A stretch of 64,000 nucleotides of DNA, from the NCBI GenBank assembly GCA_021827205.1, contig JAKAWV010000010.1:1-64000 (forward strand). Direction: 5' to 3'. Origin of the DNA: Pseudomonadota bacterium. Its GTDB lineage: Bacteria; Pseudomonadota; Gammaproteobacteria; Xanthomonadales; Rhodanobacteraceae. Shown here in pieces: positions 1,167 to 11,586 of the stretch. Position numbers and translations under genes: made by a program. Position 1 is the first letter of the stretch. Every line of letters starts with the position of its first letter. Below the pieces are notes generated by a model that saw nothing but the letters and a program-made list of their open reading frames with translations, had not been told where the DNA came from and did not search any database.

Positions 1167-2453
1167 ATGCAAGCCACACACACCCTGTCCGTCCACGCCA
1201 CCGAGGCGCTGCTGTTTTTCGTGCTGCTGCAGCTCGCCATCATCGTGCTGGCCGGGCGCATCGGCGGCGAGGTGGCGGTGCGGGTGAAGCAAACCGCGGC
1301 GGTGGGCGAGATCATCGTCGGCATCCTGCTCGGGCCGTCGCTGCTGGGATTGCTGGCGCCGCAGGTGTTCGGTTACGTGTTTCATTCCGCGTCCGGCATG
1401 CCACTGCAAATCCTCTCGCAGCTCGGGCTGATCCTGCTGATGTTCCAGATCGGCCTGGAATTCGATTTCGGCCATCTCGGCGCGAAGCACAACCGCCGCG
1501 CCGTGCTGTGGGTGGGCGTGGCCAGTTTGGCGGCGCCGTTCGTGCTTGGCTTGGGCTTTGGCTGGATCAGCGCACCCGAGCTGTCGCCGCAGGCCTCGCA
1601 CTTGGCCTCGACGCTGTTCGTCGCCGCCGCGTTCTCGATCACCGCGCTGCCGATCCTCGGCCGCATCCTGATCGACTTCGAGCTCACGCGCACGCCCATT
1701 GGCGTCATCGCCATCAGCGCGGCGGCGATCAACGACGTGGTTGGCTGGCTGTTGCTGGCCCTGGTCACCACACTCACCCTGAGCCATTTCGAACCGCTCG
1801 CCTTCGCGCTGAAAGTGACCCTGGTGCTGGGCTTCATGCTGCTGTGGATGTACGGCTTGCGGCCGCTGATGCGGCGCCTGATCCACCACCTCCAGAGCGC
1901 CGACCACGACCTGCCGCCGCACCTGCTGGGCATCGTGCTGGCGATGGTGTTCGTGTCCGCCATGGCGACGTATCAGTTGGGCATCTTCGCCATTTTCGGC
2001 GGCTTCATCATGGGCGTGATCCTGCATGACGAGACGCGCTTCGTGCACGCCTGGAAAGCGCAGATCAACCCCTTCGTGCTGGTATTTTTCCTGCCGATCT
2101 TCTTCACCTATACCGGCCTGCGCACCGACATCGGCGGCCTGTCCAGCGCCGCGCTGTGGGGCTGGTGCGCGCTGCTGGTGCTGCTGGCCACCGTCGGCAA
2201 GTTCGGCGGCGCGTATCTCGCCGCGCGCGTGTGCGGTTTGGACCATGCCGAATCCGGCGTGATGGGCGCGCTGATGAACACGCGCGCACTGATGGAACTC
2301 ATCATCATCAACGTCGGCTACGATCTCGGCGCCATCTCGCGCAACGTGTTCACCATGCTGGTGCTGATGGCGATTTTCAGCACCGTGATCACCGCGCCGC
2401 TGCTGCGGCTGTGGCTGCCGCGCGCCGGCTACGCCATCCCGCCACCGCGCTGA
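1167..2453 (+). CDS. Kef-type cation:proton antiporter
   Basis: 428-residue polytopic inner-membrane protein of the CPA2 (Kef/Na+-H+ exchanger) family. It carries the family hallmark early in the protein (GEIIVGILLGPSLLG), then FQIGLEFDF, an internal helix with AINDVVGW containing the Asp expected in the ion pathway, and ANTRAL-like MNTRALMELI near the end. About 12 hydrophobic segments are visible. It has no C-terminal TrkA-N/RCK domain, so it is the short type, like the antiporter domain alone. The start is ATG 1167. Its last 65 bp overlap the convergent RND permease gene. The transported ion (K+ or Na+) is not determined by the sequence. Confidence 0.88.
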   Translation: MQATHTLSVHATEALLFFVLLQLAIIVLAGRIGGEVAVRVKQTAAVGEIIVGILLGPSLLGLLAPQVFGYVFHSASGMPLQILSQLGLILLMFQIGLEFDFGHLGAKHNRRAVLWVGVASLAAPFVLGLGFGWISAPELSPQASHLASTLFVAAAFSITALPILGRILIDFELTRTPIGVIAISAAAINDVVGWLLLALVTTLTLSHFEPLAFALKVTLVLGFMLLWMYGLRPLMRRLIHHLQSADHDLPPHLLGIVLAMVFVSAMATYQLGIFAIFGGFIMGVILHDETRFVHAWKAQINPFVLVFFLPIFFTYTGLRTDIGGLSSAALWGWCALLVLLATVGKFGGAYLAARVCGLDHAESGVMGALMNTRALMELIIINVGYDLGAISRNVFTMLVLMAIFSTVITAPLLRLWLPRAGYAIPPPR

Positions 2454-5400
2454 ACAGGATCGGCGCGAGGCCCAGCGACATCAGGATCGACAGCAGCAGG
2501 CCGCCCATCACCGCGACCGCCAGCGGGCGCAGCAAATCGGTGCCGCGGCCGATGCCGATCGCCAGCGGCAGAAAGCCCAGCACGTCGGCCAGCATGGTCA
2601 TCAGGATCGGGCGCAGGCGCTGGCGCGCGGCCAGCGCCACCGTGGCGACACGCGGTGCGCCGCCGGAGAGCTGGCGCGCGCGCGCGAAGATCAGGATGAC
2701 GTTGTTCACCGCGATGGCGAACACCAGCAGCATGCCGAGGAACGCGGTGCTGTCCAGATCGATGTGCATCAGCCACAGCGCCAGCAGCGCGCCGGGCGCG
2801 GCCAGCGCGATCGCCAGCATCGCCGCGATGCCGGCGCGCTGGCTGGAAAACTGCAAGCCCAGCAACACCAGCAGCGCACCCAGCGCGGCGGCCAGGATGA
2901 TCGCCATCTGCCGGAAGCTGCGCGACTGCTGCCGGTAATAACCACCGATCACGCTGCTGATCGAAGTTGGGAAATGCATCGTCGCCAGCACCGCGCGCGC
3001 ATGCGCTGCGGCTTGCGCCAAGCCCTCACCGGCGCGTGGCTGCAGCCACATGTAGGCATACGGCACCAGGTTCTGGTGGGTGACATAGGGCACCACGCCG
3101 CGCATCTGCACGCGTGCAAGATGGTCCAGCGGTACCTGCTCGCCGTCGGGCAGGCGCAGCGGCAAGGCCGCGACCGCACCCGGCGCCGGGGTCGGCGTGG
3201 TGACCAACACGCGCAGCGGCAGAATCTGCTCGCCGTGCAACAACATGCCGGCCGTGCGTCCCCACAGCCGCGCCTCGACTTGCTGGCTCAGCATCAGCGG
3301 GGTCAGTCCGTACAGATTGACCTGGGCTCGCGGCGTCAGCGCGATCTCCGGCCCGGCCGATGGCGACTTGAAGGCCACGCTGCGAAACACGCCGCTATGT
3401 TCGAGCGCCAAGGCGAGGCGTTCGCCGGCGGCGTGCAGCAGCGCCGAATCCGAGCCGAACAGATAAATTTCCAGCGGTGCGTGCGCTCCGGACAGATCGC
3501 CCAGGCGATTGACCATCACCTGGGTGGCGTTCAGCGCCAGCAGGCTGGGCACCGCCTGATGAAACGCGACGGTCAGTTGCTGCATCACCGTGCGCGTGCT
3601 GGCGTCGCGTTTCTGCTTCAGTACGATTGCCAGCGCGCCCTTGTTGGACGTGGCGTAGGCGTTGGAAAAACCGCGCCCCCCGACCAGCGAAGCGCGCGCC
3701 ACCGCGGGATTGCGCAGCGCCAGGTGCAGCAATTCGCGGCCGACCGCGGTGGTCTCGGCCACGCTGCTGCCCACCTGCGTGCGGAACGGCATCGAGATCA
3801 CACCCTCATCCCAGCGCGGCAGAAACGCCGTCGGCAGCGCGCGCAGCGTGACCCAACCGAGCGCGCCCAGCACCAGCACCACCGGGATCGCCAGCCACGC
3901 GCGGCGCATGCCGGCGATCAGCCAGCGCCCATAACGCCGTTGCGCGCGCTGCTGCCTGCGCGAGACAACGGGCGCACGCACGCGCCCGGCCAGCCACAGC
4001 GCCAGCACCGGCGTCACCAGCAGCGCCATGAGCTGCGACACCAGCAGCGCGATGACGATGGCCACGGCCATCGAGCGGAACAGCAGGCCCAGCGTGCCGG
4101 CCAGAAAAATCAGCGGGACGAACACCAGGCACGAGGTCAGCGTGGCCATGCTCATGATCGGCAGGATTTCGCCGATGCGCTGCAGCGCCTGCGCGCGGCG
4201 CTGCTCGCGCTCGCCGCTGAGATCGTGCAACCCGCGCTCGATCACCACGATGGCGTGATCGACCAGCGCGCCGATGGCCGCGGCCAATCCGCCGAGGGTC
4301 ATGATGTTGAGGCCGTAGCCCAGCGCATGCAGCGCCAGGAACGCGGCGGCCAGCGACAGCGGCACCACGGTCATTACCGCCAGCGCGCCATCCACGCGCC
4401 CGAGAAACAGCAGCACCACCAGCAGTGCGATCACGCTGCCCAGCCCGAGCGCGATCCACACGTCGCGCAGACTGCCACTGATCAGCCCGCTCAAGTCGTA
4501 GATGCGCACCAGTTTCACGCCCGCCGGCAGTTGCGTGCGCAATGTGGCGATGCGCGCCCGCAGGGCATGCGCCACCGCCACCTCGTTGGCGCCGGCCTGC
4601 GCCTTGATGTCCACCACCAGCGCGTGGCGCCAGCCGGCGACGGCGGCGTCGCGTCGCAGTGGCGGCGGCGCCAGCGTCGCCGTGCCCAACGCGCCGAGGG
4701 CGATGGGCATGCGGCTGCCATCCGCGCCCATCGGCCCGAGCGGCAGCATCAGTTGCTCGAGCGCGGCAGCCGTGGCCGGGCGCGGCGTGGTGGCCACCAC
4801 GAACTGCTGGTTGTAGACCCGCAGCACGCCGGAAAAATACGGCCCCTGGGCGGCCTGCAGCGCGCTCACGACCTGGGCCGCGGTCAGATCATGCTCGGCC
4901 AAGCGGCGCGCATCGAGCAGCACGTGCACCTCGGGCCAGCCGCGCCCGGTCCAGTTCACCCGGTACACGCCATTGATGCCGAGCAGCATGGGGCGCAGAT
5001 GAAACGCGAAATAGGGCATCAGCGCCGAGCTGTCGAGTCGGTTCGACACCAGCGCGTATTCGGCGAAGGGATACACGTTGGGCGTCATCAAGTGCACCGA
5101 CATCGTCGCCCCTGGCGGCAGCGCGATATGCGCCAGCCGCGCCTGCAGCATCAGATATGCCGTTTGCGGATTGACGCCCTGGTCGAAATACACATGCAGC
5201 TTGGACAAGCCGTAACCGGTCTGCGAACGCACCAGACGCACGCCGGGCTCGCCCTTGGCGGTTTGCTCCAGCGGCAGCGTGACTATGTCCTCCATCGCGC
5301 GCACCGGCAGGTTGCCGGCATTGACCAGCACCGTGACCATGGGAAAATCGATGTCGGGAAAAATGCTCTCGGGCAACGTGCGCAAGGCATACCAGCCGGC

Positions 5401-5472
5401 ACCCAGCAGCAGCAGCGCGGACAGGATCACCGACCAGCGATTGAGCCACAGAAACGCGAGATAGCGCCTCAT
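2389..5472 (-). CDS. Efflux RND transporter permease (AcrB/CzcA superfamily)
   Basis: 1027-residue proton-driven RND pump, the usual length for the family. TM1 lies at about residues 13-30, followed by a large periplasmic loop. TM4 contains the proton-relay Asp in the stretch GALVDHAIVVIERG. The second half repeats the arrangement, with a second loop and a terminal membrane bundle. The single-Asp TM4 is closer to heavy-metal (HME) pumps than the double-Asp TM4 of the MexB-like protein at 42547. The gene overlaps the upstream adaptor gene by 4 bp, so the two are translationally coupled. No outer-membrane channel gene is in the window. The divergent Cus-like two-component system suggests a metal substrate, but this is inferred from context. 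Confidence 0.85.
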   Translation of the reverse strand: MRRYLAFLWLNRWSVILSALLLLGAGWYALRTLPESIFPDIDFPMVTVLVNAGNLPVRAMEDIVTLPLEQTAKGEPGVRLVRSQTGYGLSKLHVYFDQGVNPQTAYLMLQARLAHIALPPGATMSVHLMTPNVYPFAEYALVSNRLDSSALMPYFAFHLRPMLLGINGVYRVNWTGRGWPEVHVLLDARRLAEHDLTAAQVVSALQAAQGPYFSGVLRVYNQQFVVATTPRPATAAALEQLMLPLGPMGADGSRMPIALGALGTATLAPPPLRRDAAVAGWRHALVVDIKAQAGANEVAVAHALRARIATLRTQLPAGVKLVRIYDLSGLISGSLRDVWIALGLGSVIALLVVLLFLGRVDGALAVMTVVPLSLAAAFLALHALGYGLNIMTLGGLAAAIGALVDHAIVVIERGLHDLSGEREQRRAQALQRIGEILPIMSMATLTSCLVFVPLIFLAGTLGLLFRSMAVAIVIALLVSQLMALLVTPVLALWLAGRVRAPVVSRRQQRAQRRYGRWLIAGMRRAWLAIPVVLVLGALGWVTLRALPTAFLPRWDEGVISMPFRTQVGSSVAETTAVGRELLHLALRNPAVARASLVGGRGFSNAYATSNKGALAIVLKQKRDASTRTVMQQLTVAFHQAVPSLLALNATQVMVNRLGDLSGAHAPLEIYLFGSDSALLHAAGERLALALEHSGVFRSVAFKSPSAGPEIALTPRAQVNLYGLTPLMLSQQVEARLWGRTAGMLLHGEQILPLRVLVTTPTPAPGAVAALPLRLPDGEQVPLDHLARVQMRGVVPYVTHQNLVPYAYMWLQPRAGEGLAQAAAHARAVLATMHFPTSISSVIGGYYRQQSRSFRQMAIILAAALGALLVLLGLQFSSQRAGIAAMLAIALAAPGALLALWLMHIDLDSTAFLGMLLVFAIAVNNVILIFARARQLSGGAPRVATVALAARQRLRPILMTMLADVLGFLPLAIGIGRGTDLLRPLAVAVMGGLLLSILMSLGLAPILFSAVAGWRSRRAAATAAAAAR

Positions 5473-6473
5473 GGTCGCACCGCGACCGCCACCCCGTCCT
5501 GCAAGCGCGTGCTGCCGGCGACGATCACCTGCGCGGGGTTACCCAGCGCGCCGCGCACCCAACTCGCACCCGCGCGCGCCGCCAGCACTTGCACCGGCAC
5601 CGCCCGCGCATGACCGTTGCGCAGCACGAACACCTCGCTGTGCGCTCCGCGCCACACCACCGCCGCATCGGGCACGCGCCATGCTGGCGCGCGCGGCAGC
5701 GCGAAGTGCAACCCCAGCCACTGCCCCGGCAGCAACGCGCTGGACGCCGGCAGGGCCACGTACACCGGCACCATGCCGGCGCTGCGTGCGCTCTGCCCCA
5801 ACGAACGCACCACGGCACTGCCGCGCAGATCACCGGCATGCCAGAGCACCGTCATGCCCGGTGTCACATGACGCACCTGGCGCGGGGTCAGCTCGGCGCG
5901 CGCCCACGGTTGACCGCGTCCCAGCAGGGTGGCCACCGGCGTGCCTTGATACACCACCGTGCCGGCGCTGACCAGATAACCCAGCGTACCCGCGAACGGT
6001 GCGCGCAAGACGGATTGCGCGTCCTGCCGCTGCAAGGCCTGCAGCGCGGCATCGGCCTGCTGCAACTGCACCCGCGCCTGGTCGAGACTTTGCCGCGCGA
6101 CCAGCCCGCGCCGCGCCAGATGCTGCTGCCGGCGCAGGTCAGTCGCGGCCAGCGCCGCGTTGGCCTGCGCGGCGTGTATCTGCGCCGGCAGGCCCGGCAC
6201 CGCCACGCGCGCGACGATCGCACCCGCGGCCACCGCACCCGGCGCCAGAAACGGCCCGCGCACGCGCCCGGTCACCGGCGCCGCCAGCACCGTGTGGTCG
6301 GCGCTCTCGACGCGCGCCAGCACCGCGATGCCGTCCTGCCATGGCGCCGGCGCGACCGCCAGCACCGAGACCGACACCGCGGCGGCGGCGCGTGCCGTGG
6401 CGGCTGCACTCAGGATGAGCACGCCCGTCAGCACAAGCGTCAGACATGCCTTGCCGCCATGGCGCATGCGCAT
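5469..6473 (-). CDS. RND periplasmic adaptor (membrane fusion protein)
   Basis: HlyD/AcrA-family adaptor that bridges the RND permease to an outer-membrane channel. An N-terminal signal-like segment (KACLTLVLTGVLILSAAATARA) is followed by a biotinyl-lipoyl half-motif, an Ala/Gln-rich alpha-hairpin (AAQANAALAATDLRRQQHLA onward), the second lipoyl half (RAPFAGTLGYLVSAGTVVYQ) and beta-barrel domains. I place the start at ATG 6473, just ahead of the positive residues and hydrophobic core of the signal peptide. In-frame ATGs at 6506, 6524 and 6560 exist, but none has a clear Shine-Dalgarno, and the one at 6560 abuts the palindrome at 6564-6591. It is the first gene of the leftward efflux pair. Confidence 0.82.
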   Translation of the reverse strand: MRMRHGGKACLTLVLTGVLILSAAATARAAAAVSVSVLAVAPAPWQDGIAVLARVESADHTVLAAPVTGRVRGPFLAPGAVAAGAIVARVAVPGLPAQIHAAQANAALAATDLRRQQHLARRGLVARQSLDQARVQLQQADAALQALQRQDAQSVLRAPFAGTLGYLVSAGTVVYQGTPVATLLGRGQPWARAELTPRQVRHVTPGMTVLWHAGDLRGSAVVRSLGQSARSAGMVPVYVALPASSALLPGQWLGLHFALPRAPAWRVPDAAVVWRGAHSEVFVLRNGHARAVPVQVLAARAGASWVRGALGNPAQVIVAGSTRLQDGVAVAVRP

Positions 6474-6563
6474 GTTCGGGGTCCAATGACGAAGAAAAAT
6501 GCGCATGGCCGGGGCGAGTTGCATCGGCCCATTGTGGGAAGTGGCAATCGACGCGAGCATGAA

Positions 6564-6591
6564 CGCAACATGACGTTTCCGTCATGTTGCG
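6564..6591. promoter_or_regulatory. Perfect palindrome, CusR/CopR-box-like operator
   Basis: Two 12-bp arms, CGCAACATGACG and CGTCATGTTGCG, are perfect reverse complements separated by TTTC. The core ATGAC-N6-GTCAT has the same half-sites and spacing as the E. coli CusR box (ATGACAA-NN-TTGTCAT). It sits between the leftward adaptor/RND genes and the rightward response regulator and kinase genes. This is where an autoregulated heavy-metal two-component system is expected to bind. Confidence 0.7.
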
Positions 6592-6634
6592 CGCCGATGC
6601 GACACGTGGGCTGATCCGCGCCTATGCTTGCGCC

Positions 6635-7312
6635 ATGCGTATCCTGATCGTCGAGGACGAACCCAAGACCGCCGCCTACCTCAGAAAGGGATTGGGCGAG
6701 AACGGCTTCATTGCCGATGTCGCCGCCAATGGCGACGATGGCCTGCATCTGGCCCTGACCCAGCATTTCGACCTGATCGTGCTTGACGCCATGCTGCCCG
6801 GGCGCGACGGCTGGAGCCTGCTGCAGGCGCTGCGCGAGCAGCGCCTCACTCCGGTGCTGATGCTCACCGCACGCGACGGCGTGGCCGACCGTGTGCGTGG
6901 GCTGGAGCTGGGCGCGGACGACTATCTGGTCAAGCCGTTCGCGTTCTCGGAATTGCTGGCACGGGTGCGCAGTGTGCTGCGGCGCGGACCTGCGCGCCAG
7001 CCCGAGACGCTGCAGGTGGCCGACTTGAGCATCGATCTCGCGCGCCAGCGTGCTGATCGTGCCGGGCAGCGTCTGCTGCTCACACCCAAGGAATTCGGCC
7101 TGCTCGCGCTGCTGGCGCGGCGCGCCGGCGAAGTGCTGTCACGCACGCTGATTGCCGAGCTGGTATGGGATATGAACTTCGACTGCAACAGCAATGTGGT
7201 GGACGTGCATATCCGCCGCCTGCGCGGGAAGCTCGACGAGCCGTTCAGCTCGCCGCTGTTGCACACGGTGCGCGGCGTGGGCTATGTGCTCGAGTTGCGC
7301 AGTGGCGATTGA
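6635..7312 (+). CDS. OmpR-family response regulator (CusR/CopR type)
   Basis: 225-residue two-component regulator. The receiver domain has the acidic pair at residues 8-9 (VEDEP), phosphoacceptor Asp51 (LIVLDAMLP), the conserved Thr in MLTAR and Lys in LVKPF. A winged-helix OmpR-type DNA-binding domain follows ([15 protein letters not shown], then [14 protein letters not shown] and the final VRGVGYVL). The start at 6635 is chosen because MRILIVEDE is the family N-terminus; an upstream in-frame ATG at 6584 would lie inside the palindrome. It is followed after 69 bp by its kinase, and probably controls the divergent efflux genes. Confidence 0.88.
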
Positions 7313-7381
7313 CAGGGATCTGGCGCAACGCCGGGGAATAGCGACCGGATGCACCCTTTCTGCACAAGCTGGAGACGCGTG

Positions 7382-8902
7382 ATGGGGAGTGAAGTGCCGG
7401 GCAAGGGATGGGTTTCTCGGCGCCTGGATGCCGCAATCGCAGCCCCCGGCGTGCGGATCGCTCTGCGCCGCCTGCGTCAATACGGCTTGCCACCCGATTC
7501 GCTGGCGGCGTGGTTGGCCGCTGCTTTTGCGCTGACCCTGGTATTGATCCTGCTCGCTGCCAGCATCTGGATCTATTGGGGGTTGCAGCAGCGCATGATG
7601 CAAGAAGACCGCGAGGCCGTGCTGCGCAAGCTCGACGTGGTGACAGTGTTGCTGCGCACTCACGCGGCCGACAGCGACGCGCTGCGCCAGGCGGCCTATC
7701 TGCCGCTTCCGGCAAATGCGCCGCGCAACCTGTTCCTGCGTCTGAGTACTGCGGACGGTCGAGTGTTGTTGCAGACCCCTGGCTTCAACCCGGCACTGGA
7801 CACGCACCGCTTCACCGCATTGATGGTCAGCGGTCATCCGGTACTGAGCAAGCTGCACATCAAGCCGCATCTGCACTTCCTCAGCGCCATGCTGCGGGTC
7901 CGCGCACGCCCCGCGGTCGCGATGCCGCCGCAGGCACTGCAACTGGTCGTGGTGCTCAATCGCAGTACCGAGGCGCATATCCTGGCTGTTTACCGCATAC
8001 GCTTGGCCGGGGTGCTGCTCGTCGCACTGCTGATAGCTGCCGCAGCCGGATACGTCATTGCGTGGCGAGGCTTACGCCCGTTGCGTCACATGGCCGACTC
8101 GGCGCGCCAAATCAGCGCCAGCAACCTCCACGAGCGCATCGATCCTCGCGGGCTGCCCAACGAGTTGCATGCGCTGGCGCTGGCGTTCAACTCAACGCTG
8201 CAGCGACTGCAAGAATCGTTCGGCCGTATCTCGCAGTTCTCGGCCGACATCGCCCATGAATTGCGTACGCCGATTTCCAATCTCTGGGGCGAGCTGGAGG
8301 TAACGCTTGGGCGGCCGCGCGAACCCGCGCAATACCGCGAGGCGCTGGAGTCGGCGGTGGAGGAATGCGCGCGTCTGTCGCAAATGATCCAGGCGTTGCT
8401 GTTCCTCGCACAGACCGAGCTACCGGATGCGGCGTTGCACATGGAGCGGCTGGACCTGGGGGGCGAGTTGACGGCGCTGGCTGAATTTTTTGACGCTGCT
8501 GCCAGCGAGGCGGGCGTGCACCTGCAGGTACGGATCGAACCGGGCCTGACCCTGCATGCGGATCGCGTATTGCTGCAACGGGCCGTAGGCAACATCGTTG
8601 GCAATGCGCTGGCGCATACACCGGCGGGCGGTAGCGTGGTTTTGTCGGCACGTCGCATGGCTGGCGTTGTTCGAATCGAGGTGACCGACACTGGCTGTGG
8701 CATCGCCCGCGAACATCTGCCGTTCCTGTTCGAACGTTTCTACCGCGCCGACCCGGCCCGTAGCCGTGCTCGTGGTGGGCTCGGCCTGGGCCTGGCACTG
8801 GTGCGCAATATTGTCCGCCTGCACGGTGGCGACGTTGGCGCGGATAGCGCGCCCGGCCAGGGCACGCGCCTATGGCTGGATTGGCCGGCGCCGGCTGCGT
8901 AA
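7382..8902 (+). CDS. Heavy-metal-type sensor histidine kinase (CusS-like)
   Basis: 506-residue membrane kinase. TM1 lies at about residues 42-67. A periplasmic domain follows, with a His/Met-rich stretch (GHPVLSKLHIKPHLHFLSAM) that could bind metal, then TM2 near 205-225 (LAGVLLVALLIAAAAGYVIA) and a HAMP linker. The H-box is ADIAHELRTP with His292. An HATPase domain has N (VGNALAHTP), G1 (DTGCGI) and G2 (GGLGLGLAL) boxes. The start at ATG 7382 has GGAG 7 nt upstream; an in-frame ATG at 7349 is less well placed. It partners the response regulator just upstream. The metal specificity is not visible. Confidence 0.87.
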   Translation: MGSEVPGKGWVSRRLDAAIAAPGVRIALRRLRQYGLPPDSLAAWLAAAFALTLVLILLAASIWIYWGLQQRMMQEDREAVLRKLDVVTVLLRTHAADSDALRQAAYLPLPANAPRNLFLRLSTADGRVLLQTPGFNPALDTHRFTALMVSGHPVLSKLHIKPHLHFLSAMLRVRARPAVAMPPQALQLVVVLNRSTEAHILAVYRIRLAGVLLVALLIAAAAGYVIAWRGLRPLRHMADSARQISASNLHERIDPRGLPNELHALALAFNSTLQRLQESFGRISQFSADIAHELRTPISNLWGELEVTLGRPREPAQYREALESAVEECARLSQMIQALLFLAQTELPDAALHMERLDLGGELTALAEFFDAAASEAGVHLQVRIEPGLTLHADRVLLQRAVGNIVGNALAHTPAGGSVVLSARRMAGVVRIEVTDTGCGIAREHLPFLFERFYRADPARSRARGGLGLGLALVRNIVRLHGGDVGADSAPGQGTRLWLDWPAPAA

Positions 8903-9087
8903 CCAAACCCTCGAAGCCACTGGAAGCAGGAAGTTGCTGCCGCGCGTTGGCCCCATGGCCCGCCCCGGGGCGCCACGTCGAGCGAATCACGGAATTCCCG
9001 CCGGCCACTGCGGGACAAGCCGCATTCTGGGAGTTGATCGTTGCCGTGCGGGTTGCGAGTTGCGGATGCGGTATCCGGGGCATCAAG

Positions 9088-10095
9088 TCAGCCGTTGCCC
9101 GACAACTTGAACTCGATTTGCCGTTTGAGCACGACTGCCGTGGGCTGACCATTGATCAGCGCCGGCTTGAACCTCCAGCGCGACACTGCGTCGATCGCGG
9201 CGCGATCGAACACATAGCGCGGCTTGGAATCGGTGACGTGAACATTGCTCACCGAACCATCAGGGTTGACGGTGAACTCGACGTCCACCCAGCCCTGCTC
9301 GCCGCGGCGCGCAGCGCGCAGCGGATACTTCGCCGGTACCATGTGCACCATCTGCGCTTTGCGATTCTCGATGTGCGTTGCGGTTTTGACTGCGGCCGCC
9401 CGCGTTGCAGCCGCTCGCTGTTCCTGCTGCTGTTTCGCCGCCGCCGCCGCAACAGCCTGTTCCAACTCCTGCTTCTGCGCGGCCGCGGCCAGTTGCTTCT
9501 GTTCCACCTGTTGCGCCTGCGCGGCCGCTGCGGCCGTTTGCGTCTGTGCGGCGCCTTGCTTCGTCTTTTGCTGTTGTGCCGCGAGGGTGCGCGCCGCATC
9601 CAACTTGGAGCGCAGGATGGTCAAGGTGTAATCGGTCGGGTCGGCCTTGGCCAGCAGGCCGATCTCACGCTGCGCCTCGGCGAAGTTTTTCTTGTGGATG
9701 GTCTGGTCGACGATCTGCGCGCCGTACGGGAATGTTTCACGCAGGGCGCTCTGCGCGGCGCGATTGTGGGGACTCTTCCGCAGCACTTCGAGGTAATACT
9801 CGAACGCATTGTCGCCTGCGGGCGCCACCAGTCGATTTCCCTGCAGCGCTTTTTGCGCCTGATCCATGAGCTGATCGACGCTCATCGCGGCCAGTCGGTC
9901 GGCGGCCTTGAGGGCCACGGCAGCGGGCGGGATGCCGGCCGATGCCGTCTTGGCCGGCACAATCGGCGCCTTGGCGGCCGGTGGTGCGGAACGATGGGAG
10001 CTGGAGCACCCGGCCAGGGCCGCGCTCAGCAGTACGACCACCACCGACGCCACGAGGCGGGGATGGGCACGGAGAAATGCGGATTCGATAGCCAT
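9088..10095 (-). CDS. Lipoprotein with C-terminal TonB domain
   Basis: 335-residue protein with a lipoprotein signal (LLSAALAGC, lipobox LAGC). The residue after the Cys is Ser, so by the Lol rule it would go to the outer membrane. The middle is Gln/Ala-rich and coiled-coil-like (roughly residues 150-240, runs such as QQQKTK, AAQAQQ, KQQQEQ), preceded by possible TPR-like helices. The last ~85 residues are a TonB C-terminal domain (GWVDVEFTVNPDGSV, AAIDAVSRWRFKPA). The start at 10095 fits the signal peptide and a GAGAGG upstream; the frame is open further 5' without a better start. A TonB domain on a lipid anchor instead of an inner-membrane helix is unusual. No exbB/exbD lies nearby. Confidence 0.75.
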   Translation of the reverse strand: MAIESAFLRAHPRLVASVVVVLLSAALAGCSSSHRSAPPAAKAPIVPAKTASAGIPPAAVALKAADRLAAMSVDQLMDQAQKALQGNRLVAPAGDNAFEYYLEVLRKSPHNRAAQSALRETFPYGAQIVDQTIHKKNFAEAQREIGLLAKADPTDYTLTILRSKLDAARTLAAQQQKTKQGAAQTQTAAAAAQAQQVEQKQLAAAAQKQELEQAVAAAAAKQQQEQRAAATRAAAVKTATHIENRKAQMVHMVPAKYPLRAARRGEQGWVDVEFTVNPDGSVSNVHVTDSKPRYVFDRAAIDAVSRWRFKPALINGQPTAVVLKRQIEFKLSGNG

Positions 10096-10452
10096 GAGCC
10101 GCCGCCTCTCGAGGCACAACGCGTCACCGCCGGCTTCCCCTGTGCGGTGGCGCTGCAAGCGCGACGCCACAGTAGCCCGATCATGCGCGCCAGGCAATGC
10201 GAGTTGAGCGCCCGAACGACTGCCGCCTTGACCGCGCTGCACCCTCCGCCGTCGTGGGCTTGCGCTGGACGGCGCCCAGCGCACGCTGTTCGTGGGCTGC
10301 GCTGAAGGCAAAGGTGATTGCGCTCGATCGCACTCGCGCTACGGACACTCATTACGAATTCGTGATCAACTTGCATGCGCACTCACAGATTCCGGCACAT
10401 GCCGGGCCGCCGCTGTTTCGCCAACATGCGGCTTCCCGCACGGAGCACGCCC
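10096..10452. other. Non-coding interval between divergent genes (357 bp)
   Basis: Lies between the divergent TonB-domain lipoprotein gene and the PAP2-family gene and should hold both promoters. I see no convincing coding remnant, although frames stay open because of base composition. I cannot assign -35/-10 boxes with confidence. An AT-richer patch at about 10341-10372 is the likeliest promoter zone for the rightward gene. Confidence 0.4.
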
Positions 10453-11112: not shown

Positions 11113-11586
11113 TCATTGCGCAGCCGAAACCACGGTGCCCTGCGCGATCGCGCACAGCTTCTCCTCGCCGTTTTCAACCGAGTAGATTTCGCACTGGCAC
11201 ACGGCCTGACGCTTGCCGACGCCTGTTGCATGCGCGCGCGCGACCAGCAACGAGCCGCGCGCCGGCTTGAGGTAATTGATCTTGAACTCCGAGGTAAGCG
11301 CATTGCCGCCGAGCGCCAGCCCCCCGGCAAACGTGATCGTGTTGTCCGCCAGGTAGCTGATCACACCGCCGTGCACGAAGCCATGTTGCTGCTGGTGCTG
11401 GCCGCTGACCGGCAGACTTATTTCAGCATCGCGCGGTCCCGAGCCGGTGAGCCGGGCGCCGATAAACTGGCTGAAGGGCTGTGACTCGAAGATCTGCCGT
11501 GCGAATGCGCTCAGGTCGTCCACAGCCTGCTCTTCAAGGTCATGCGCATCAGTCACCACGCCGCTCGCGGCGATCCTTGTGCGCAT
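11113..11586 (-). CDS. PaaI-family hotdog thioesterase
   Basis: 157-residue hotdog-fold acyl-CoA thioesterase. The family signature is HGFVHGGVISYLADNT, with the HGG motif and the Asp of the active-site helix, followed by TSEFKINYLKPARG and a terminal strand. Such enzymes act on aryl- or acyl-CoA in the cytoplasm. It is the last gene of the long leftward run. The annotated start overlaps the upstream oxidoreductase by 38 bp; in-frame GTG codons at 11559 and 11556 would shorten the overlap. Confidence 0.82.
   Translation of the reverse strand: MRTRIAASGVVTDAHDLEEQAVDDLSAFARQIFESQPFSQFIGARLTGSGPRDAEISLPVSGQHQQQHGFVHGGVISYLADNTITFAGGLALGGNALTSEFKINYLKPARGSLLVARAHATGVGKRQAVCQCEIYSVENGEEKLCAIAQGTVVSAAQ

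Follow-up and report, generated by a model that had tools for sequence, protein, structure and literature searches.

A palindrome lying between a divergent efflux operon and a regulator operon raises the question of whether one site governs both transcripts, and the setting described here lets one ask further whether a foreign two-component system can seize a resident pump by bringing, or by matching, a shared operator code. The palindrome occupies positions 6564-6591 (no strand) of the window, by which we mean the whole 64,000-nucleotide stretch that was analysed. From sequence comparison we consider it likely that this repeat is the operator of the adjoining TIGR01387 response regulator, that the regulator responds to a metal signal and activates the operons on both sides, and that it came with an inserted block.

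The palindrome and its place

The repeat reads CGCAACATGACG-TTTC-CGTCATGTTGCG, and its two 12-nt arms (6564-6575 and 6580-6591) are 100% complementary and stand 4 nt apart. It sits in a 161-bp gap, with an adaptor/RND operon on one side and a response regulator/kinase pair, transcribed divergently, on the other. The initial annotation had described a perfect 12-bp inverted repeat with an ATGAC-N6-GTCAT core between divergent genes, and had equated its spacing with that of the enterobacterial CusR box; both descriptions held, the spacing being identical to that of the E. coli cus core, ATGACAATTTTGTCAT. The 16-bp core box itself, ATGACGTTTCCGTCAT, lies at 6570-6585 (no strand) and was delimited from family box counts, a matrix and the consensus given in the accessible text of PMC7380067. 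It stands at -65 relative to the regulator gene, whose start codon is at 6635, and 96 nt from the start of the adaptor gene (5469-6473, minus strand; TIGR01730 above cut-off). This adaptor start is most likely 6473 and not the first in-frame ATG of the longer reading frame at 6560, because homology to congeners begins at about that point (residue 28-29 of the 363-aa reading frame; L138, L139, L141).

Taken as a bare inverted repeat, the palindrome is nothing unusual for a GC-rich stretch of 64 kb: one perfect repeat with arms of at least 12 and a loop of 0-12 was observed, and 30 dinucleotide shuffles gave a mean of 0.47 and a maximum of 4. The bare core is likewise at background level in the genome. 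The initial annotation had proposed a genome scan for ATGAC-N6-GTCAT, and the exact motif was found at only 6570-6585 in the window and at two places in 3.04 Mb, against one for the reversed control; the flanks of the other genomic copy do not extend the inverted repeat. Once its location in the gap and its letters are counted, however, the palindrome is not ordinary by chance. Shuffling of the 161-bp gap produced an arm of even 9 bp in only 24 of 2000 trials. Furthermore, when the sites of the window were scored with a matrix derived from 25 boxes found in other organisms, position 6570 came second (16.3 bits), after 10351 (19.5 bits) and ahead of a third site at 12.4 bits, where 0.025 sites of at least 16.3 bits are expected per 64 kb (40 mononucleotide shuffles).

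The same repeat folds strongly as RNA (-43.1 kcal/mol, z -3.1), as would befit a leader or terminator hairpin, and the shuffled frequency of perfect 12-bp repeats given above would accommodate a chance palindrome. Either of these, in place of a protein site, is very improbable: a search for a terminator-like site found none, and the core letters, spacing, place and possible third half-site (described below) fit the family box.

The box family and its regulators

The gene to the right of the palindrome (6635-7312, plus strand) encodes an OmpR-family response regulator of the heavy-metal type, placed by TIGR01387 (315.7 bits, cut-off 279.2) and by a tree, and the next gene (7349-8902, plus strand) encodes a sensor histidine kinase of the heavy-metal type (TIGR01386, 393.2 bits, cut-off 292.55). 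With these memberships, the right core and spacing and a gap of the size found at cus, the earlier assignment to the CusR type (CusR/CopR/AgrR) was borne out. A footprinted consensus, ATKACANNNNTGTMAT, is given for AgrR of Cupriavidus metallidurans in the accessible text of PMC7380067, and TGACA-N4-TGTCA is cited for CopR and CusR in that of PMC12428095. The window box matches the CusR/CopR/AgrR-type core ATKAC-N6-GTMAT, a 6-4-6 inverted repeat, exactly, and departs from the AgrR consensus only at positions 6 and 11, with G6/C11 in place of A6/T11. G also occurs at that position in 7 of the 50 half-sites of the 25 family boxes and in the clade mates L003, L030 and L006; judged from these letters, A6/T11 are preferred, not invariant.

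Among the best 80 related regulators in the matches listed, 19 carry an exact ATKAC-N6-GTMAT within 200 bp upstream, and none of these 80 carries the same half-sites at any of eight other spacings. Controls inside the genes of the same best 80 gave the exact pattern in 2/80 and the one-mismatch pattern in 12/80, and reliance was therefore placed on exact counts. The spacing had been thought striking in a distant lineage; this impression was not upheld, given the 19 exact boxes among those best 80 and a host that, judged from the regulator tree, probably belongs to the order of Stenotrophomonas and so shares its class with the enterics. We reject the idea that the box is a rarity or an enterobacteria-like import, since it is widespread in the regulator family.

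The 25-box set was drawn from the best 80 loci among the matches listed, with one mismatch allowed and inexact boxes required to lie between -110 and -30, a position rule that excluded L046 (one mismatch, -190); L033, L034, L051 and L065 matched only under a looser pattern. The 25 boxes are not independent, because several are near-duplicates (L016/L024/L026, L022/L023 and L042/L045). In 20 of the 25, a third half-site, GTMAY, matches at four to five letters at offset 6 on the outer side, away from the regulator gene; on the regulator side the count is 2/25, and no other offset between 1 and 23 exceeds 4/25. The E. coli cus box has such a half-site (5/5) on its pump side, and four boxes behind the kinase genes of relatives of the window regulator have it at 4-5/5, pointing away from the kinase. 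In the window a possible third half-site, TTCAT, lies at 6559-6563 (minus strand), towards the pump and 6 nt away from the core, and its 4/5 match to GTMAY is equalled by about 3.5% of window 5-mers. The direct repeat itself is already published: footprints and mutants of AgrR indicate that inverted and direct repeats both matter (PMC7380067, accessible text). A literature search for a family-wide third half-site returned nothing beyond the accessible parts of PMC7380067 and PMC12428095. Its 11-bp phase and outer position in most family boxes suggest a simple rule by which the direction of a box could be predicted. On the same outer side, 11 bp further along at offset 17, the boxes of L008-L072 also seem to have a weaker fourth half-site, flanked by a conserved G and C; its mean match is 2.68 of 5, with at least four letters in 4/25.

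A 93-row tree, from which the partial proteins of L061, L072, L048 and L076 and some further loci were left out, puts the window regulator in a supported nine-member group (100/93), separate from E. coli CusR. Its mates there are labelled Acidobacteriota, Verrucomicrobiota, Planctomycetota and Thermodesulfobacteriota, and two are proteobacterial MAGs; since most of the mates come from MAG contigs, these labels could be mistaken. A regulator match at E 1e-92 or better turned up in just one of 398 genomes of the order, the window's own, with a few candidates scored in each genome. The kinase is closest to those of L003 and L030 (44%), as for the regulator clade, which suggests that regulator and kinase were transferred jointly. 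No box was found directly upstream of the regulator gene in the eight group mates. Boxes with the same G6/C11 letters stand at or just behind the kinase gene in L003, L030 and L006, L011 has two strong boxes, L004 has one, and L005, L032 and L047 have weak ones only. Because its members carry boxes elsewhere, such as near kinase genes, the group seems to read this box, with varying placement. Inspection by eye revealed no recognition-helix residue distinguishing readers of ATGAC from readers of ATTAC.

A probably inserted block and the older boxes of the genus

A block of about 3.9 kb (approximately 6488-10351, no strand; ends read by eye), made up of the box, the two-component genes and a TonB-like gene, is absent from all six congeners with the pump operon beside a PAP2 gene. 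In these congeners (G005, G011, G012, G002, G003 and G006), the PAP2 gene is the immediate divergent neighbour of the adaptor-RND operon. The simplest reading is that the window's lineage gained the block, because the nearest relatives by flanking DNA, G011 and G012, are without it. The two-component system and its box thus seem to be a species-specific insertion beside an older pump operon, a feature overlooked in the initial annotation. The sensor-regulator pair seems foreign, its regulator clade being sampled mostly from other phyla. The last gene of the block, the TonB-like gene (9088-10311, minus strand), is a paralogue of a gene that the genus already has (71% identity to the resident copy G000:C23:9313-10377), and the block may therefore be composite.

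Two further observations concern the surrounding DNA. The adaptor-RND stretch at 2440-6383 has 96.4% DNA identity to G005, while its flanks have 81-86% to G005 and are closer to G011 (89-91%); this stretch is likely a recombined patch. A thioesterase-like gene at 11113-11586 is found in the matching stretch of G011, with no match in the stretches of G005, G002, G003 and G006.

The recent arrival of the block beside an older pump operon would suit a box that serves the regulator-kinase operon alone, the pump being transcribed independently and its nearness accidental. The position also agrees, since boxes at loci from the best 80 among the matches listed stand at -36 to -120 before the regulator gene. 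Such pure autoregulation is nevertheless rather doubtful, for the region that once preceded the adaptor gene seems to have been lost to the insertion, and the possible third half-site faces the pump. The geometry and this orientation make a single site for both transcripts, as the initial annotation predicted, plausible.

The gap between adaptor and PAP2 genes in the congeners has palindromes of its own. In 6/6, with left gap ends picked by eye, the best family-like palindrome lies 64-92 nt from the adaptor start and matches 10, 10, 9, 9, 8 and 8 of 10 letters. Their summed score was reached in 0/1000 shuffles; taken singly, the two 8-letter palindromes are at chance level (239 and 258 of 1000 shuffles). 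A third half-site of 4/5 is present in only one of the six. Across the genus (13 genomes), ATTAC-N6-GTAAT, present for instance at genus loci L170-L183, occurs 20 times against 3 for the reversed pattern, and some of these sites precede genes resembling TonB-dependent receptors, a resemblance judged partly by eye. The similar congener palindromes and this enrichment suggest that a resident regulator with a similar code, and with its own regulon, probably exists in the genus.

One such ATTAC-N6-GTAAT site, at G000:C32:124936 (L147, L185), lies 102 bp before a TonB-dependent receptor gene. Its candidacy as a second target of the inserted regulator is weakened by conservation of the receptor across the genus and by the degenerate palindromes that precede it in 4/5 congener loci scanned. 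As for the owner of the congener boxes, the second resident regulator, G000:C10:114231 (about 54% identical, with genus orthologs), is not supported; no ATKAC-N6-GTMAT with at most one mismatch was found within 350 bp (276 bp for L135) upstream of it and its genus orthologs. A second family-like box, ATTACGAATTCGTGAT, lies in the window at 10351-10366 (no strand) between the TonB-like gene and PAP2, and is the site that the matrix ranked first. Overlooked in the initial annotation, it is the window's relative of the PAP2-side element; the congeners have degenerate TTAC-N6-(G/T)TGA forms at the equivalent place, which indicates that this box predates the insertion.

Since congeners have comparable though weaker boxes roughly as far from their pump genes, the window palindrome could itself be the old operator of the pump operon, formerly read by a resident regulator. 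The two-component system would then have inserted on the PAP2 side and taken over a site whose letters already came close to its own code, the half-sites shifting afterwards from ATTAC to ATGAC, and the resident regulator may still bind. The 96-nt distance in the window, close to the 64-92 nt of the congeners, and the genus enrichment are consistent with this course of events. We judge it unlikely, however, as both window half-sites are ATGAC where those of the congeners are ATTAC, the third half-site recurs in a single congener, and the sequence around the box has no convincing alignment to congener gaps. The broader notion of a regulatory takeover, in which a foreign metal-type system replaced or captured an old ATTAC-N6-GTAAT operator with a pump-facing ATGAC-N6-GTCAT array, is put forward tentatively, at somewhat less than even confidence. 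A literature search on whether transferred two-component systems rewire regulation yielded, judging by titles, nothing relevant. If it is true, an existing pump, perhaps one that does not export metals, has been put under a foreign signal, and the six congeners are natural before states. Such a takeover can be tested, because the same pump operon has the inserted regulator as its neighbour in one species and lacks it in six close relatives.

The pump, the proposed mechanism and known systems

The RND permease (2389-5472, minus strand; 1027 aa) was classified from profile scores, structural relatives and alignment. Its score of 316.7 falls short of the 701.45 required by the CusA/CzcA model TIGR00914, a point that the initial annotation overlooked, and it passed none of the RND models listed. 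Among proteins of solved structure it is closest to MdtB and other drug pumps; ZneA comes within the first six and CusA lower. At the CusA methionines, which we take to be at positions 573, 623 and 672, the aligned letters are P, I and D; position 573 is unsure, because the adjacent column has an M. According to the accessible text of PMC10127602, a proton-helix signature of DFG or AVG with one D marks metal pumps, and AIG with DD marks pumps of organics. The window permease has a mixture, AIG (organic type) with a single D then H (metal type). Its signature also has ER in place of EN. Because the permease misses the CusA/CzcA cut-off, this RND pump is at most a candidate for metal export and may not export metals.

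Reading 6564-6591 as the operator of the adjoining regulator draws on the exact core and spacing with 19 family boxes among the best 80 regulators in the matches listed, the similar E. coli cus gap, the family cut-offs that were passed, and the G6/C11 boxes near kinase genes of clade mates. It draws also on the outer third half-site of 20/25 family boxes, with its 4/5 counterpart in the window, on the AgrR footprints and mutants (PMC7380067) and on the shared palindrome of the cusR-pcoA2 gap (PMC11195947), each as given in the accessible text. Against it stand the lack of a box upstream of the regulator in the eight clade mates, the G6/C11 departure from the AgrR consensus, similar congener palindromes at about the same place where this regulator is absent, and the 4/5 match of the third half-site; in addition, a search for a sigma-70-like promoter on either side of the box found none, and the permease does not reach the metal RND cut-off. 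From the evidence on both sides we infer the following course. A periplasmic signal, most likely an excess transition metal, would lead the kinase to activate the regulator. Two regulator molecules would then bind symmetrically to the palindrome, and another would probably occupy the in-phase third half-site beside it. Once bound, the regulator would switch on the rightward operon, to which it belongs, and the leftward adaptor-RND operon. In the window lineage, regulator, kinase and TonB-like gene would have arrived together, as a block that separated the pump operon from PAP2. Altogether, the initial interpretation is partly supported; the box is a known kind of site with a footprinted relative, and its setting is the interesting part.

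Compared with the AgrR box of C. metallidurans (PMC7380067, accessible text), the window has G6/C11 for A6/T11 and perfect 12-bp arms; its regulator seems to belong to another clade. Pseudomonas paraeruginosa has one palindrome in its cusR-pcoA2 gap that serves the operons on both sides, and its heavy-metal two-component system is horizontally acquired, as the window's seems to be; there, however, the targets arrived on the same element, whereas the window pump operon appears older than the inserted regulator (PMC11195947, accessible text).

Like the window, the E. coli K-12 cusR-cusC gap (156 bp, against 161) separates divergent pump and regulator genes and has ATGAC-N6-GTCAT; it also has a third half-site on the pump side, where the window has a possible one. 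Unlike in E. coli, the window regulator falls below the CusR equivalog NF007346 (277.1, cut-off 420), the permease is not CusA, and no counterpart of cusC or cusF lies beside the pump. In Pseudomonas aeruginosa, the genes of MmnRS and MexMN are linked. These systems, named in the accessible text of PMC11195947 and PMC11362173, resemble the window, as likened by description, in that a regulator of the same family is tied to an RND pump for organic compounds.
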